Part shown: positions 23,155 to 38,861 of the stretch, in pieces
How the letters are laid out: every line of letters starts with the position of its first letter
How positions within the stretch are numbered: position 1 is the stretch's first letter
Source of the DNA: Capitulum mitella
Taxonomy: Eukaryota > Arthropoda > Thecostraca > Pollicipedomorpha > Pollicipedidae
Direction of reading: 5' to 3'
Assembly: GCA_030062745.1 (NCBI GenBank)
Contig: CP099846.1
Coordinates: forward strand, 28,231,201 to 28,295,200
DNA length: 64,000 bases
Made by a program: the position numbers and the translations under genes
Notes under the pieces: model-generated
What the model was told of the DNA's origin: nothing
Seen by the model: the letters and a program-made list of their open reading frames with translations, nothing else
Databases searched by the model: none

Positions 23155-24000
23155 CCAAAGTTCATAAATCAGGGGTTCATCAGGCAAAAGGCTTGAAGCC
23201 AAAGGTTCATAAGCATAAGGCTCGTATTGTAAAACGTCCGTACCGCAAAAGATTCGTTTTGGAAGAAGTTCGTATGGAACAGGATTTGCGTCGGAAAAGA
23301 TTCGTATCGAAAAAGGCTCGTAACGAAAAAAGTTCGTACTGCAAAAGGTTCGTATGGAAAAGGCTCGTACAAAAAAGGTTCGTAAGGGAAAAGGTTCGCC
23401 AGGAAAAGGTTCGCAGCCACAGGTTTGCAAACGTAAGGTTCGTGTTGAAAAAGATTTGTATATGACAAGGTTCGCATCGGAAGATTACTACACTCAGAAC
23501 ATTACTAGACAAAAGATCGTATGGAAGAAGTTCGAACGCAACAGATCGTTAGAAAAAGATCGTATAAGGTGAAAGATCGCATGGCAAATGATCGTTCGTA
23601 GAAGATCGTATGGCAAAGGTAGTCATAAGGCAACAACATCAAACGTAACCTAACGCAACCTAACTTCCGGCAAATCGATTATTGTGTCTACGGCAAGCCG
23701 ATTACTACGCCCACGCCAAACCGATTTCTGTGCCTCCGGCAAACGCTTACGGAAAACCACCTTTTGACAATGCTACCTTTTGTCCTTACGATCGTACGAT
23801 CGCACACCCAGATCCCGTACGATCTTTATCCTATACGATGTGTTGCTTATAATCTTTTCTTCCGATACGAATGTTGTCCGATACGAACCTTATGTTTACG
23901 AACTTTTGGTTACGACCCTTTTTTCCTGCGAACCTTTTCCCTTACCAACCGTTGGCTCACGAACCTTGCTCTGGTTTCCGTTAGCCACGAGTGTTTTGAG
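23155..24000. repeat. Inverted pair of degenerate AAAAGGTTCGTA word arrays
   Basis: From 23155 to about 23625 the words AAAAGGTTCGTA and AAAGATCGTATGG recur every 13-16 bp on the plus strand. From about 23780 to 23990 the same words appear inverted (CGAACCTTTTC, TACGAACCTTATG). Between them, 23669-23737 holds three copies of a 23-bp unit starting GGCAAATCGATT. The array starts directly at the decayed end of the family-A MITE. Frames across it (plus 23193-23465, minus 23149-23430) only encode periodic KRFV-like or YEPF-like peptides. Confidence 0.75.
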
Positions 24001-33117: not shown

Positions 33118-34782
33118 ATTAAAAAACCCAGTCATGAGCAGAATATGCTCATGACTGTGCATCACATATCATGCAGTCACACTGCATAACATGCTGCTAC
33201 TGTGATGGTTGGCTGATAGAAAACAGCACTACTCCACTGCAAAGAAAACAGTGCTGCCAAACATGACATTATTCACCCTGTTCACTAGCAAAGACATTAC
33301 ACAAATACTCGAACAGGTAAAGATGAAATATGAATACATATAAATCAGCATTATCTAACCTGAAATACACACATGAAATGTAAGTAGAGGAATAATAAAA
33401 AATGAAAAGGCCATCAGCAAGAAAATGAAAAGAAATGAAATGGCCACCTGATAATAGGTGGTGGGTAGAAAAAAGTGGCAGAAAAATACACATCAGTTGC
33501 CATACAAGAAGTTATGGCTAGGCTAGATTACATTAGGTGAAGTTGGGTTAAGTTAGGTGTATTATGTTAATAAGATATGTCAGGTTTTGTAATTTTTTGT
33601 CACAGTAACATTGGGTTAGGTCAGGTAAAGAAAGATAATGTTCGGGCTAGGTCAGTTACTCCTTGTACTGAGACATTACTGCCATTACTTTATTTCTTGC
33701 ATTTGTATTTATTTTACATTTCCATTTTTAATACCTCATATTTTTCACTACTTTTATTATTTTTCACTCCATCATTACTAACATTTTCATTTAATTTTAT
33801 TTGCACAATGAAATTAAATCATTCATTTTATTTCCACTTTTGAAATTTTTCTTCTTTCAATTGCTGACTTTACAGTCACTAATCTATTCCTTAATCCATT
33901 TCATATCTATTTCCATATATCTTCTCATATATCATATATTCATTCATATATTACATACCTACATACATCTATGTCATAAATTCACAGCCAGACAAAATAA
34001 ATAGCACATGCACAGCTCAAAGCCCAGGACCAACACATTCAAAAACTTCACACATTTCACTGTCAAGCTAGTAATGCTTCCAGAAGGTTGATTTGCTTAC
34101 CAAGGGACAGTGACTCAAAATTGGTACCTTTTCAAAAGAAATGGTACAACACAAGGTGCAGCACCCTGTTGCATTCCAGAAGACTGTGAATGTGCTAATC
34201 ACAGGCAAAGAGCACACTGACTATTTCCCAGTTTTTCACTTTTGTGCCAGACATAGAGACAAGACCAGATTATCAAAGCAAAATACAAAATGAAATGAAG
34301 GGCATTTAGAAATGTAGTCTGTGATGCACAGGACCATCCAGCATGAAGCAAATTACTGCTATTTATGACAATCTGCACCCCAAAGTTCAAAAAACAACCA
34401 CGGATTCCAAAGCCCAGCCTCCTTTGAAACTGACACGATCCAACACCACGCATTTTGATAGTTATAAACCTTGCTTAACGAGGTATGCAGCAAGTCCTAG
34501 TTTACACCAATTTCACACATTTCTTTTTCTTTCCTGCCAGTTTATTACTTGCTAATATTCTTATTTTCCACCTTAACATTGTTTTTACTATCAATGTTTG
34601 CTTACTTCCACATCTGTTTTCTTAACTGTGATCTTAATGCTGTTTTGCATTAATCATTTCTCCTTTTCATTTTATTTGTGTATTACTTTGTGCTTTTGAT
34701 GCTTTGTACTTCTTGAATTTATGCATTTCTCATGATGCCTCCTGGTCATTCTTAGATGGGCCAAAATAAACATCAAATTTCA
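33118..34782. other. CpG-poor intergenic DNA
   Basis: AT-rich, with very few CG dinucleotides and many TG/CA. A few TTAGGT-like words occur at 33518-33650. No exon was recognised. Confidence 0.5.
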
Positions 34783-35431
34783 GTAATCCTTACCGATCGC
34801 ACACCATGCACAGAGTCGAGGGTAAGGTTAACGAGCGAGTGTAGTTTCCGATTTCGCCACCAGGGTGATATTCGTTCTTTTTCTCGCCGCTAGGAAGAGT
34901 ACGTAAAAATACTGACATTCGCTAGGATGGTTCCCCTCAAGAACGCGCGAGTGTAGTTTCTGATTTCGCCACCAGGGTAATATTCGTTAGGTTAGGTTAG
35001 GTTAGGTTAGGTTAGGTTAGGTTAGATTAGATTAGATTAGATTAGATTAGGTTAGGTTAGGTTAGGTTAGGTCTGAACGAATTCATCTGCTTTCCATCCT
35101 GGTTCGGCAATTCTGGAGAAAGTGGTACTTTTTTTATGATTGACCTCACCTGTGACGTCATCAACGGGTCAAAAGTAAAAAAGTGTGTAAGTCACAGAAA
35201 CGAAACGTTCGGTGCTGTCAACTGGCGTTCAAATCAGCCAAATCGAACTATTGGTTATCATACCATTGGTTCTTGAGCGGAACCATCCTAGCGAATGTCA
35301 GTATTTTTAGGTACTCTTCCTAGCGGTGAGAAAAAGAACGAATATCACCCTGGTGGCGAAATCGGAAACTACACTGGCCCGTTAACCTTACCCTGGACTC
35401 TGCGCATGGTGTGCAATTGGTAAGGATTACC
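34783..35431. mobile_element. Mutator-type (MULE) MITE with long inverted arms and a telomeric-repeat core
   Basis: The arms at 34783-34945 and 35277-35431 are reverse complements over about 155 bp (GTAATCCTTACC at the outer ends; ATTTCGCCACCAGGGTGATA and CTAGCGAATGTCAGTATTTT recur inverted). Both ends are flanked by the 9-bp direct repeat CAAATTTCA (34774-34782 and 35432-35440). A 9-bp duplication with long arms is characteristic of Mutator-like elements. Part of the left arm (GCGAGTGTAGTTTC...) is repeated internally at about 34947. The core carries a TTAGG array. No ORF. The element is CpG-rich while its flanks are CpG-poor. Confidence 0.88.
34987..35071 (+). repeat. (TTAGG)n interstitial telomeric repeat with TTAGA variants
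   Basis: About 17 tandem 5-bp units. TTAGG units lie on both sides of a central run of about five TTAGA units. TTAGG is the canonical arthropod telomere repeat. The tract lies between the arms of the Mutator-type MITE. Confidence 0.97.
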
Positions 35432-35440
35432 CAAATTTCA

Positions 35441-38400
35441 ACCAACATTTACTTCAGAGAAACAAAAAAATTGTAAACATGCTTCAGGAGGTGGCATGCA
35501 GCGCAGAAGCTGTGCAGTTTCCTGAAAGGAAAGTTTGTGTATTTCTCCTGGTTTTCAGCTGAAAGCAGAGTAAAGCACCTACCTGTTACAATTTTAGGAC
35601 ACTAAACCTATCAATGCATTTTCTCAATATTATGGATTTTGTAGGAAGGACTGATTCCATAAGCAAACTCACTGCATGCTTCAACTTTGTCATGTGCAAT
35701 AAAGACATTGCAAAAGAATCTGATTCTGCCATGAATGAAAGAACTTATTCAATTAAGCGGGCATAATAGTATTTAAGACGCTCGTTTCCAGCATTTCATT
35801 TTCATCGAATTTTTTAACCTCTGGAGGGCCATGGAATCTGATGGCTAGAAAATGCTTTCCTCTTGAAACTGGCTGCGCCAGAGAATACTATCCGCAAATC
35901 ATTCTTGAAAACTGACTGCTACCTACATCTCCCGACATCATCAACTTTATCTCACCTTTATCTGTTGCTCGATAATAGCCAATTTTGTTTCGGAGGTAAC
36001 CTTCGGCCAAGGCCGCCTTTGCCAACATAACAAAGTACAGCGCAAAGATCGCAATTGCTGCGCAGGATATTTAAGTTATGTAGGTTTCCAGATACTGCCA
36101 AATATACTACATTTTTGTCGATACAAAGGATTGACGCAATGTTCCGTCATCGCGTCGTTTTCGCCGTTAGTTGTCGGTGTTCCTGGGTTCCTCTGAGGCA
36201 ATAAAGTAGGGGCCTCTCGATATAATAGTTCAATATCAGTCTGGTAGGATTCGGCTTCGGCTGTGTGATACCCGGAGCTTTGCACGAGTGCATGTGCTGT
36301 ATAACTACGTTTTGAGGCCCACGGCAAGAGCCAATATTGCTAGATAACCAGCCGGGTTGAGGGGCGGACAGCCTACGCGGACAGCTTACCTACCTTCAGC
36401 ACAAACGTTTGGTATGTGAATTTTTGGAATGTGTGTTTTTGGCGTTTCGGTATTTACCTACCTAGCTAACCGCCTGTCGTATCAGATAGGGTGAGACTCA
36501 ATATAAAGTTAGTGGGCAACTGTTTAATTACGATTATAGAAGCTTAATATGGGGCATGTGGTCATGAACCAGAAAAAATGAAAACTGGTTTTCTCCTTTG
36601 GTTGTTCCTGAAATGTTCTGCTACTGGCATGTGAAATGGCAGTTGTGGTCATTGTGGGAAAGTTGAATTACCATATTTGTGGTTTGGATGGTGCAATATT
36701 AGACTCCCTGTCCTTTCAAAATGGGTTAGAGTCACCCTGGGCAATTGGATAAAAGACATGGATGACACATAGCGTCAAAAGAAGACATCAGCTGTTGCAA
36801 GAAACAACAACATTATGCACTGGGAGCTCCAGGGCGAGATGACCTACTATTCTTTACACATAGGTCATGTCATGGTTAGGTTAGGTGGGTTAGGTTAGGT
36901 TTCCCTCAGGTTAAAATGGGCCATGACCTAACATTGCTTGATTGTGTGTGGGAATCAGTCCATGCAGCAAGCAAGCAGCACTTAGGGCAGGTTCAGATCT
37001 GGAATATCAGTGCATCAAGTCCCTTGGATCAATTCTAAAAAATAGAGCAGTCTGGTCTCTAAGTGATTTTCCAGCTAGTTCCACCTGTGACATACTCTAT
37101 AGAATGTGAAAGGATTTTCAGAAAGATGATTTTACCCAGAAGCAGTGGTGTGCAATAACATGAATACCTGATGACTTGTCCAAATAACTTGTTTGAAGCA
37201 AGGTGGTAGGACAATTGAGTTGTACATACATACTAATGATACTTGTACTTTGCTTAGCAGAAAAAATGGAACTGAGCTCTTAGTCTGGCTGTGCCATAAT
37301 GCCTTTGATGAATATATAATTTTGCAACCACTGGACACAGAATCATGAGCTTTTTACCAGGAGGTGCATCAGTTCTGTAATCATTTTCAGTTTTGTGTAG
37401 AGTGGGTTTTCTGCAAGGTCTTTTTCCCATGTGCTGTCTAGAAATGGCAGTTTCATTGCTGTTTTTGTAAACTGCTTATCAAGCTTGTGGATTAATGACA
37501 TCAAGCAATATTATGGTTGCACATAATGTTAAGCAACCATTTTAATGGGTGCAAAATATTGAAATAGGTTGCCAACATTCACATAATGTTAGTTACATTG
37601 CTAGGGGAAAAATTGCTGAATAATGATCCAAAGTATGTTTCCAAATGTCAAAGAATTGCAGTCTGCATTTTCCATGCTCCACACAGTGTCCATTGTAATT
37701 GTCCTGTAAAAATAAATTTGGTTGCACTCTTCTGCTTCACTTTATTGCAAGCTGTGATGCAGAAGGCATCCTACATTTGCTGAATGCATGCATCAATGGA
37801 CTGTTCAGTGAAGTGATGCGTGTTCTGAACAACAAAGAAATGCAGGTAGGATGGGCCAGGGTAGGTTAGTTTAGGTAATATTGATTTTATTAAAACAAGT
37901 GGAACCACATGGTCATTGACAGACAATGAAAAATTAAAAACCATATGGCACATCTCCATTTTCCTGGTCTGACAAATGGGGCAATTTTGCCAGTATTCTA
38001 AATCTGGATGTATGTGCATGAAACCAATTCATGTTGTCAGAGTACTCAGATCAGACCAGTGTTCATGCCAAACTGGTGACAGAACAACTTGCAATTTGGG
38101 CATGATCTATGGCTGACATGGGAGCACTGCAAAACAGTGACACATGACCCATGGGTCATGGTAAAATGGCACCAGTAGCATGCTGTAGAATGCTCTTGAT
38201 AATGTTCTCAGTGCAGATTTTTGGAAAAAATGCTTCATCCACTGACATGTAGCAGTACTAGACTGTGCAGCCCAGTGAATGCATATTTTCATTAGCCTGT
38301 GCCTGCTCGTGACATCATGTAACAGCTGTTCACAGGGCTCAGTCATATAGGACACCTGGAAACTTTGGATTCGTTTTGGAGGTCTGTAGGTATAGGGCAC

Positions 38401-38516
38401 TGAGATGTCAGATATAGTACAGGTTGGCCTCTTAAGACTACAGGCTACAACTTGGCTATCTCATTTCAGAAGGTGGCTTAGTGTAGAGTATTCCCATTCA
38501 CACACACAATGTGAAC
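35441..38516. other. Intergenic, mostly CpG-poor, no gene recognised
   Basis: CpG is depleted except for a CpG-normal block at about 35780-36500. The small open frames have no homology. A TTAGG-bearing foldback lies at 36861-36931. Confidence 0.5.
36861..36931. repeat. Small foldback containing four TTAGG-like units
   Basis: TAGGTCATG at 36861-36869 is inverted as CATGACCTA at 36922-36930. Between them lie two GGTTAGGTTAGGT blocks. This may be a decayed relative of elements that carry telomere-like words. Confidence 0.5.
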
Positions 38517-38861
38517 CATGGGCGTCAGTTTCTGTAAATGCTTGGGTAGGCCAAGCCATGAGCTCGAACAACCTAACCTCCCCCAAATGTGGGTTTCTCA
38601 AAGGATTTAGCCCACTTTATTTTGACCTGTGGAAATTTATGAGGTTTTGTTACTATTTGTCAAATAAAAAATATTGTATATCCCATGTATATAGATGTAT
38701 ATCTATATCTTAGATATTTATATCCAGATCTTATATATACATTTATATTTATATGTAAGCTGGCAGAAAATATTGGAGGGGCCTAAACCAATATTGGAGG
38801 GGCCCAAATCAACATTGGATGGGCCAGGGCCCCCTCGAAAGAATACAGATCGACACCCCTG
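38517..38861. mobile_element. hAT-type MITE, about 345 bp, with internal 21-bp repeats
   Basis: The left end CATGGGCGTCAGTTTCTGTA and the inverted right end CAGGGGTGTCGATCTGTA are similar. The flanking 8-mers ATGTGAAC (38509-38516) and CTGCGAAC (38862-38869) agree at six of eight positions, consistent with a decayed 8-bp hAT target duplication. Three 21-bp units (AATATTGGAGGGGCC core) lie at 38769-38831. No ORF. Confidence 0.6.

Follow-up and report, generated by a model that had tools for sequence, protein, structure and literature searches.

The window analysed here, a stretch of 64,000 nucleotides from Capitulum mitella (G000:C8:28231201-28295200), contains at 34782-35431 a 650-bp element, a member of the family here termed F1, in which inverted arms enclose about 17 TTAGG-type units. 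From left to right it consists of a 162-bp left arm, a 47-bp copy of part of that arm, the array, a 196-bp segment and a 162-bp right arm. The left TIR (34782..34944, + strand) begins with A, in place of the G of the other 38 full-length copies, and the right TIR (35269..35431, - strand) has the terminus GGATTACC. Recomputed from the window, the arms 34783-34944 and 35269-35430 are 162 bp long and 94.4% complementary; counting the flanking palindrome AAATTT gives 170 bp, which inflates the arm. The 47-bp direct copy of arm bases 48-94 (34942..34988, +; 94%, repeat D2), which the initial annotation had overlooked, leads at its end into the (TTAGG)n array (34986..35072, +), which comprises 17.4 units with 97% matches and includes five TTAGA units at 35025-35049 (+). 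The 196-bp internal segment that follows (35073..35268, +) is, in a larger relative considered below (L098), mostly the inner part of a longer TIR of at least 347 bp.

On either side of the element lie the identical 8-bp target duplications (TSDs) CAAATTTC, at 34774..34781 and 35432..35439 (both +), in the register common to 25 of 39 full-length copies. The nine letters CAAATTTCA do occur at both ends (34774-34782 and 35432-35440), and the initial annotation had taken them for an intact 9-bp duplication around a 649-bp element with arms of about 155 bp. The inverted-repeat element is real and does enclose about 17 telomere-type units, but comparison with the 38 other full-length copies places its start at 34782, one base before the start first proposed. 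As a constant G precedes GTAATCC in those copies, with the TSDs outside it, a 9-bp duplication abutting a GTAATCC terminus was rejected, and the ninth matching base in the window copy is best read as the first base of the element, changed from G to A. A Pfam scan recognised none of the seven frames tried among the 30 window frames of at least 150 residues, and window scans with Rfam (gathering thresholds) and for tRNA gave no matches. Outside F1 the window holds three further GGTTAGGTTA 10-mers, at 36874, 36888 and 62246.

A search of the animal's own genome (477,042,490 bases in 16 contigs) with the window element returned at least 164 matches (40 scored among 288 candidates). Forty matched places were taken with their flanks, 39 of them full length; the partial copy L047 is outside all counts of 39, as are nine more copies (L069-L077) obtained from a search with the internal segment. 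A 36-base terminal pattern, allowing up to three mismatches, is present at 94 forward and 93 reverse sites, compared with 0 and 0 for the controls, and these 187 terminal sites correspond to about 94 elements, confirming the premise that the element is repeated in the genome. The 39 full-length copies measure 575-654 bp and, outside the array, differ from their consensus by only 0.4-3.9% (96.1-99.6% identity), which indicates a young family. F1 has the features of a MITE: it is short, non-coding and multi-copy, with TIRs, TSDs and near-uniform copies. In one copy (L071) the sequence separating the two 47-bp repeats is missing, a deletion that recombination between these repeats would give. For two others (L015 and L031) the insertion site adjoins or lies inside other GGTTAG-type repeats.

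When one base per side is given back to the element, so that it runs from GGTAATCC to GGATTACC, perfect 8-bp TSDs lie outside these ends in 25 of the 39 copies and perfect 9-bp TSDs in four (L026, L040, L044 and L046); two of the ten copies that have no perfect TSD match at seven of eight bases. At least seven of the eight bases agree in 27 of the 39 copies, versus 4 of 1,482 mismatched left-right flank pairs used as a control. Target duplications had been anticipated for the flanks and are present, though mostly at 8 rather than 9 bp. The left terminus is GG in every copy except that of the window, which has AG (38 of 39), and the right terminus is CC in 37 of 39. Duplications of 8 bp also occur in hAT and P elements, whereas those of MULEs are mostly 9 bp (9-11); hAT elements combine the 8-bp TSD with short TIRs starting CA or TA. 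F1 agrees with hAT in the length of its TSD but not in its 162-bp TIR starting with GG. Long TIRs, GG termini and some 9-bp TSDs are also compatible with Mutator-like elements, and the first description of the element as a Mutator-type MITE is consistent with all three, as well as with six genomic matches to the MULE domain (PF10551, best 4e-10) and with a second family, F2, which also starts GGYAATCCTT and has 9-bp TSDs, judged by eye, in L079, L080, L081, L083 and L085. We nevertheless consider a Mutator-like origin of F1 unlikely, as its duplications depart from the MULE length in most copies and the MULE matches are few; at the three of these six loci that were examined, over about 3.2 kb each, F1-, F2- and F3-type end motifs were absent within 1.5 kb. 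While the designation as a MITE holds, the TSD lengths and the scarcity of MULE domains weaken the Mutator assignment.

Merlin-type enzymes are better represented, with 36 genomic matches to the transposase domain PF12762 (best 1.8e-19), 15 of them in open frames of at least 288 residues. The superfamily, which encodes an IS1595/IS1016-related DDE transposase, is characterised in PMC8101967 by GG termini, TIRs of 24-462 bp and TSDs of 8 or 9 bp, and the GG start, 162-bp arms and 8- or 9-bp duplications of F1 all fall within these bounds. Given 8-bp TSDs outside GG...CC ends and a genome in which Merlin transposases are abundant, F1 is probably a Merlin-type rather than a Mutator MITE. It differs from typical Merlin elements in having no gene, and no element combining F1 termini with a Merlin or any other transposase was found (none of the 36 PF12762 matches was shown to have F1 ends), so that its assignment to Merlin is likely only. 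One F1 copy (L033:1-535, - strand) precedes, by about 65 bp, the start codon (ATG) of an open 308-residue frame for a Merlin transposase, whose PF12762 match is at C11:26770697-26771017; the part of the frame within L033 itself has no Pfam match, nearly all of the DDE match lying beyond it.

The telomere-type array is a fixed component of this family. In all 39 full-length copies it is flanked by AATATTC and TCTGAACGAATTCATC (point changes allowed), and the spacing between these flanks, 19-94 bp, is always 4 modulo 5; array lengths in every one of these copies thus differ by whole 5-bp units only, the unit number ranging from about 3 to 18. As the copies had been recovered by similarity to an array-bearing query, the right-junction sequence was also counted without the array, to avoid selecting for it, although that sequence itself adjoins the array. 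Alone it is found at 87 places in the genome, and at 86 when joined to one TTAGG unit (GGTTAGGTCT), with up to three mismatches allowed and controls at 0. The array is therefore constitutive in F1, its unit being joined at the identical base in 86 of 87 right-junction sites, and together with the 5-bp steps in the full-length copies this upholds the idea that the dispersed element serves as a vehicle for interstitial telomere sequence. A later insertion of telomere DNA into some MITE copies, independent of the spread of the element, would accord with the lack of an array in the larger L098; the identical junctions in all 39 full-length copies and the unit at 86 of 87 right-junction sites render such a history highly improbable.

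Within this constant frame the arrays vary. TTAGA units are found in L009, L011, L017, L048 and L069, while L010 and L012-L016 carry TTCGG units together with CTAGG or TCTGG units; the latter copies are near-identical, yet their arrays already differ. Variant units, too, are inherited and undergo expansion. In L013 about nine copies of a neighbouring unit, TCTGG, have built up alongside the TTAGG units, and units other than the telomere-type one can therefore expand. The suggestion that the TTAGA interruption might date expansions fares poorly: the variant is present in one to seven units per carrier, and a tree built without the array gives no support for grouping L009, L011 and L048 (L069 was not on the tree), so that TTAGA dates nothing well and was rejected as a clock.

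Larger relatives offer a view of how the element may have been assembled. Among the first 100 of the 187 terminal sites, three facing pairs of F1 ends lie wider apart than in a MITE. L098 (on C3) is a 4,871-bp fold-back element bounded by F1 termini; its 1.5-kb arms are 92% identical and built in part from diverged tandem units, each about 190 bp long. It has no frame longer than 102 residues and no GGTTAGGTTA-type pair. The outer 347 bp at both of its ends correspond to the right half (304-650) of the F1 MITE, and the ancestral inverted repeat was therefore probably at least 347 bp long. F1 accordingly looks like a left arm (162 bp) and an arm fragment (47 bp), followed by the array and a right arm of about 347 bp, and comparison with the array-less L098 suggests that the array occupies the junction of an internal deletion. 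L102 (on C10) and L103 (on C7) are 1.95-kb F1 elements into which the same 1.34-kb element of another family, F4, has inserted, flanked by the 8-bp duplication GCTTTCCA. These composites are 97.6% identical and sit at different sites with different outer TSDs, which shows that the composite was moved whole by its F1 ends at least once.

F1 is only one of the carriers of such arrays. The exact 22-mer GGTTAGGTTAGGTTAGGTTAGG occurs 3,870 + 3,970 = 7,840 times in the genome, against 1 + 3 = 4 times for the reversed control. Its first 100 places, at C1:2.54-9.18 Mb, form 25 clusters (two of them, 0.8 kb apart, having been merged), and the first 20 of these were analysed, a non-random sample from one stretch of one chromosome. 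Scaling up the 25 clusters per 100 places to all 7,840 matches would give, very roughly, 2,000 arrays genome-wide. At these 20 consecutive loci F1 is met once (L088), and the other 19 arrays lie in four other dispersed repeat groups. F1 is thus a minor carrier of TTAGG arrays in this genome, and its role as a vehicle, correct in itself, had been understated as a description of what is a multi-family phenomenon. Nine of the loci (L078-L081, L083, L085 and L090-L092) belong to F2, an inverted-repeat family, 382 bp long in L083, with the ends GGCAATCC/GGTAATCC and, in the five of these nine loci named above, perfect 9-bp TSDs by eye; its left linker is present at 422 places in the genome with up to three mismatches. 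F3 comprises L082 and L084, with arms of 378 and 382 bp and 8-bp TSDs by eye; L094 resembles these two at 69-77%. F4 accounts for five loci (L089, L093 and L095-L097) and has ends of the type GGYYAACAGTAAG, while F5 (L086 and L087) is represented by two loci sharing 70% over 394 bp.

Inverted arms of at least 80 bp are found within about 1 kb on either side of the array at 11 of the 20 loci, and at 4 of 153 window positions and 1 of 57 contig-end positions used as controls with a fixed 30-bp gap. When the arms of different families were aligned and compared with 500 shuffles, the observed score was reached by 153 (F1-F2), 470 (F1-F3) and 39 (F2-F3) of them; homology of the arms as proof of a single ancestor of F1, F2 and F3 is unsupported by these controls, and F1 and F2 are alike only in their first bases, GGYAATCCTT. 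The window itself contains a degenerate F2 copy (36759..36935, +), 1.3 kb downstream of F1, which matches F2 loci at 78-88% over 77-106 bp; the match covers 36759-36852, the right edge was set by eye, and short GGTTAGG units lie at 36874-36900. Elsewhere in the window, 23217-23967 is a minisatellite with inverted arms (I4), built of AAGGTTCGTA-type units, that resembles sequence in the F3-like L094, and 38516-38861 is a dispersed repeat common to L092 (76-83%) and L089 (80%).

A further context for the array is the 3' side of Merlin genes. In L104, the 601 bases after a Merlin frame of 324 residues read as a stop codon, about 10 bp, a CCTAA array of about 75 bp and then F4-like sequence (102 bp at 87% identity to F4). 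Array apart, this 3' region resembles F4 and not F1, F2 or F3; F4 is most likely a Merlin derivative. A 43-base pattern made up of the gene end and the array occurs at 11 places, nine of them exact, and all 11 lie just downstream of PF12762 matches; six of these loci have frames of at least 288 residues. The other 25 of the 36 PF12762 matches, including four of the 12 best-scoring and the very best, lie outside the pattern loci. Because the pattern included the array, Merlin genes that have none are not countable by it, and these 25 may be array-less or may come from other Merlin families. The array is most likely a regular part of one Merlin family, placed just after the transposase gene.

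The recurrence of the array at arm junctions in unrelated families, and at these 11 loci just behind a Merlin gene, might be taken to mean that the TTAGG block is useful to the element, be it as a putative binding site for host proteins that bind telomere repeats, as a loop spacer or as a Merlin 3' end signal, and is kept by selection. The F1 family tolerates anything from about 3 to 18 units, variant ones among them, and we regard selection for such a use as quite unlikely. It is similarly doubtful, if a broader proposal, that Merlin-type transposons have repeatedly taken up (TTAGG)n and keep it as a standard part, both beside the gene and at the arm junction of several unrelated MITEs, that the telomere repeat of the host has thereby been dispersed, and that such elements may make use of telomerase or telomere-binding proteins for their healing, positioning or replication.

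The telomerase RNA-binding domain PF12009 has a single match in the genome (7.5e-11), which lies in a 739-residue open frame. Terminal CCTAA repeats were seen at one of the 20 contig ends examined (L049-L068, of 32 in all), namely the start of C10, where they extend for about 200 bp with CCCAA variants; one other, the start of C1, opens with 5,000 N. With terminal repeats at 1 of 20 ends, TTAGG is likely, rather than proven, to be the telomere repeat of this species. The F1 array starts after ATTCGTT, the GTT of which could prime telomerase or a template switch, and on its other side borders on GAACGAAT, which is complementary to that arm motif, as if the tip of a hairpin had been opened. These junction sequences are compatible with the healing of a break, and are not proof of it. 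The presence of the same unit in unrelated families may reflect the use of existing arrays as templates, the action of telomerase at transposon breaks, growth from seeds by slippage, or a use to the element.

The third of these routes amounts to an alternative account of the origin of the arrays, in which each family acquired its own as an ordinary microsatellite, from short GGTTAGG-like seeds through slippage and with no link to telomeres or telomerase, the frequency of such arrays being due to the mutation bias of this genome. It concerns origin only, being compatible with F1 as a Merlin-type carrier, and it sits well with several of the above observations: lengths shift in whole 5-bp units; TTAGA, CTAGG and TCTGG units expand too, which is not expected of a telomerase with one template; and in most comparisons alignments between the array-bearing arms of F1, F2 and F3 score no higher than those with shuffled sequence. 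Yet a single 5-mer, TTAGG, is shared by at least four repeat groups, lying beside arms or immediately behind a gene, the excess of the 22-mer over its reversed form is very specific to the telomere-type unit, and the genome has a telomerase domain match. On balance we judge independent microsatellite origins to be a possibility of real weight, albeit the less probable course.

Repeats riding on MITEs are not without precedent. Coates et al. in 2011, cited in PMC6947457 and PMC9659126, reportedly described lepidopteran MITEs with hitchhiking (GTCY)n microsatellites; as in F1 a microsatellite lies inside a MITE, but the lepidopteran repeat is not of telomere type. Tandem repeats riding on a MITE in Xenopus are likewise said to have been described by Hikosaka and Kawahara in 2004, and that element shares with F1 the carriage of lineage-specific tandem repeats, though both repeat and element are different. 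Microsatellites carried in MITEs are thus already known in moths and Xenopus. Interstitial telomeric sequences, for their part, are commonly regarded as traces left by chromosome fusion or break repair, and those of mammals are attributed to the action of telomerase at double-strand breaks. The mammalian arrays are like that of F1 in that the array abuts a break junction, and the GTT of F1 could prime TTAGG synthesis; they differ in being separate events each, whereas F1 would represent one founding array multiplied by transposition. In Caenorhabditis elegans 1,229 interstitial telomeric tracts are counted in passages of PMC9071541, where many short telomere-type arrays are likewise scattered inside chromosomes; unlike the tracts as presented in those passages, all 20 arrays sampled here lie in dispersed repeat groups, several of them with clear transposon structure. 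In passages of PMC8101967 on Merlin no telomere-type array is described, and the strings 'telomer' and 'mite' have 0 occurrences in its main text. Among the open-licence full texts listed for telomere-type repeats in MITEs, transposons or Merlin elements, subscription papers lying mostly outside this coverage, none was seen to describe Merlin elements in which a TTAGG array is a constant component.

The reading that we favour, with a probability of roughly 0.72, is that F1 is a recently amplified, non-autonomous Merlin-type MITE family whose founder carried an array at the junction of an internal loss, that it moved as a whole while its array was altered by slippage, and that it is one of several array carriers in this genome. 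According to this scenario the founder would already have possessed a (TTAGG)n block where the internal part had been lost, the block itself probably being repair filler, either made by telomerase or templated by another array, placed where the ancestral element had broken. A Merlin (IS1595-like DDE) transposase would then have acted on the GGTAATCC termini, copying the whole element, array included, to new sites, where insertion would yield duplications of 8 or 9 bp; once inserted, the array would grow and shrink by slippage in 5-bp steps.

As far as sampled, interstitial telomere-type DNA in this genome is cargo of transposons and other dispersed repeats, multiplied in the case of F1 by DNA transposition. 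This bears on how TTAGG signals are to be read in such chromosomes and assemblies. It also provides numerous insertions in which a telomere-type array sits in a known context, whereby the effect of such an array on fragility, recombination or telomere maintenance becomes testable.
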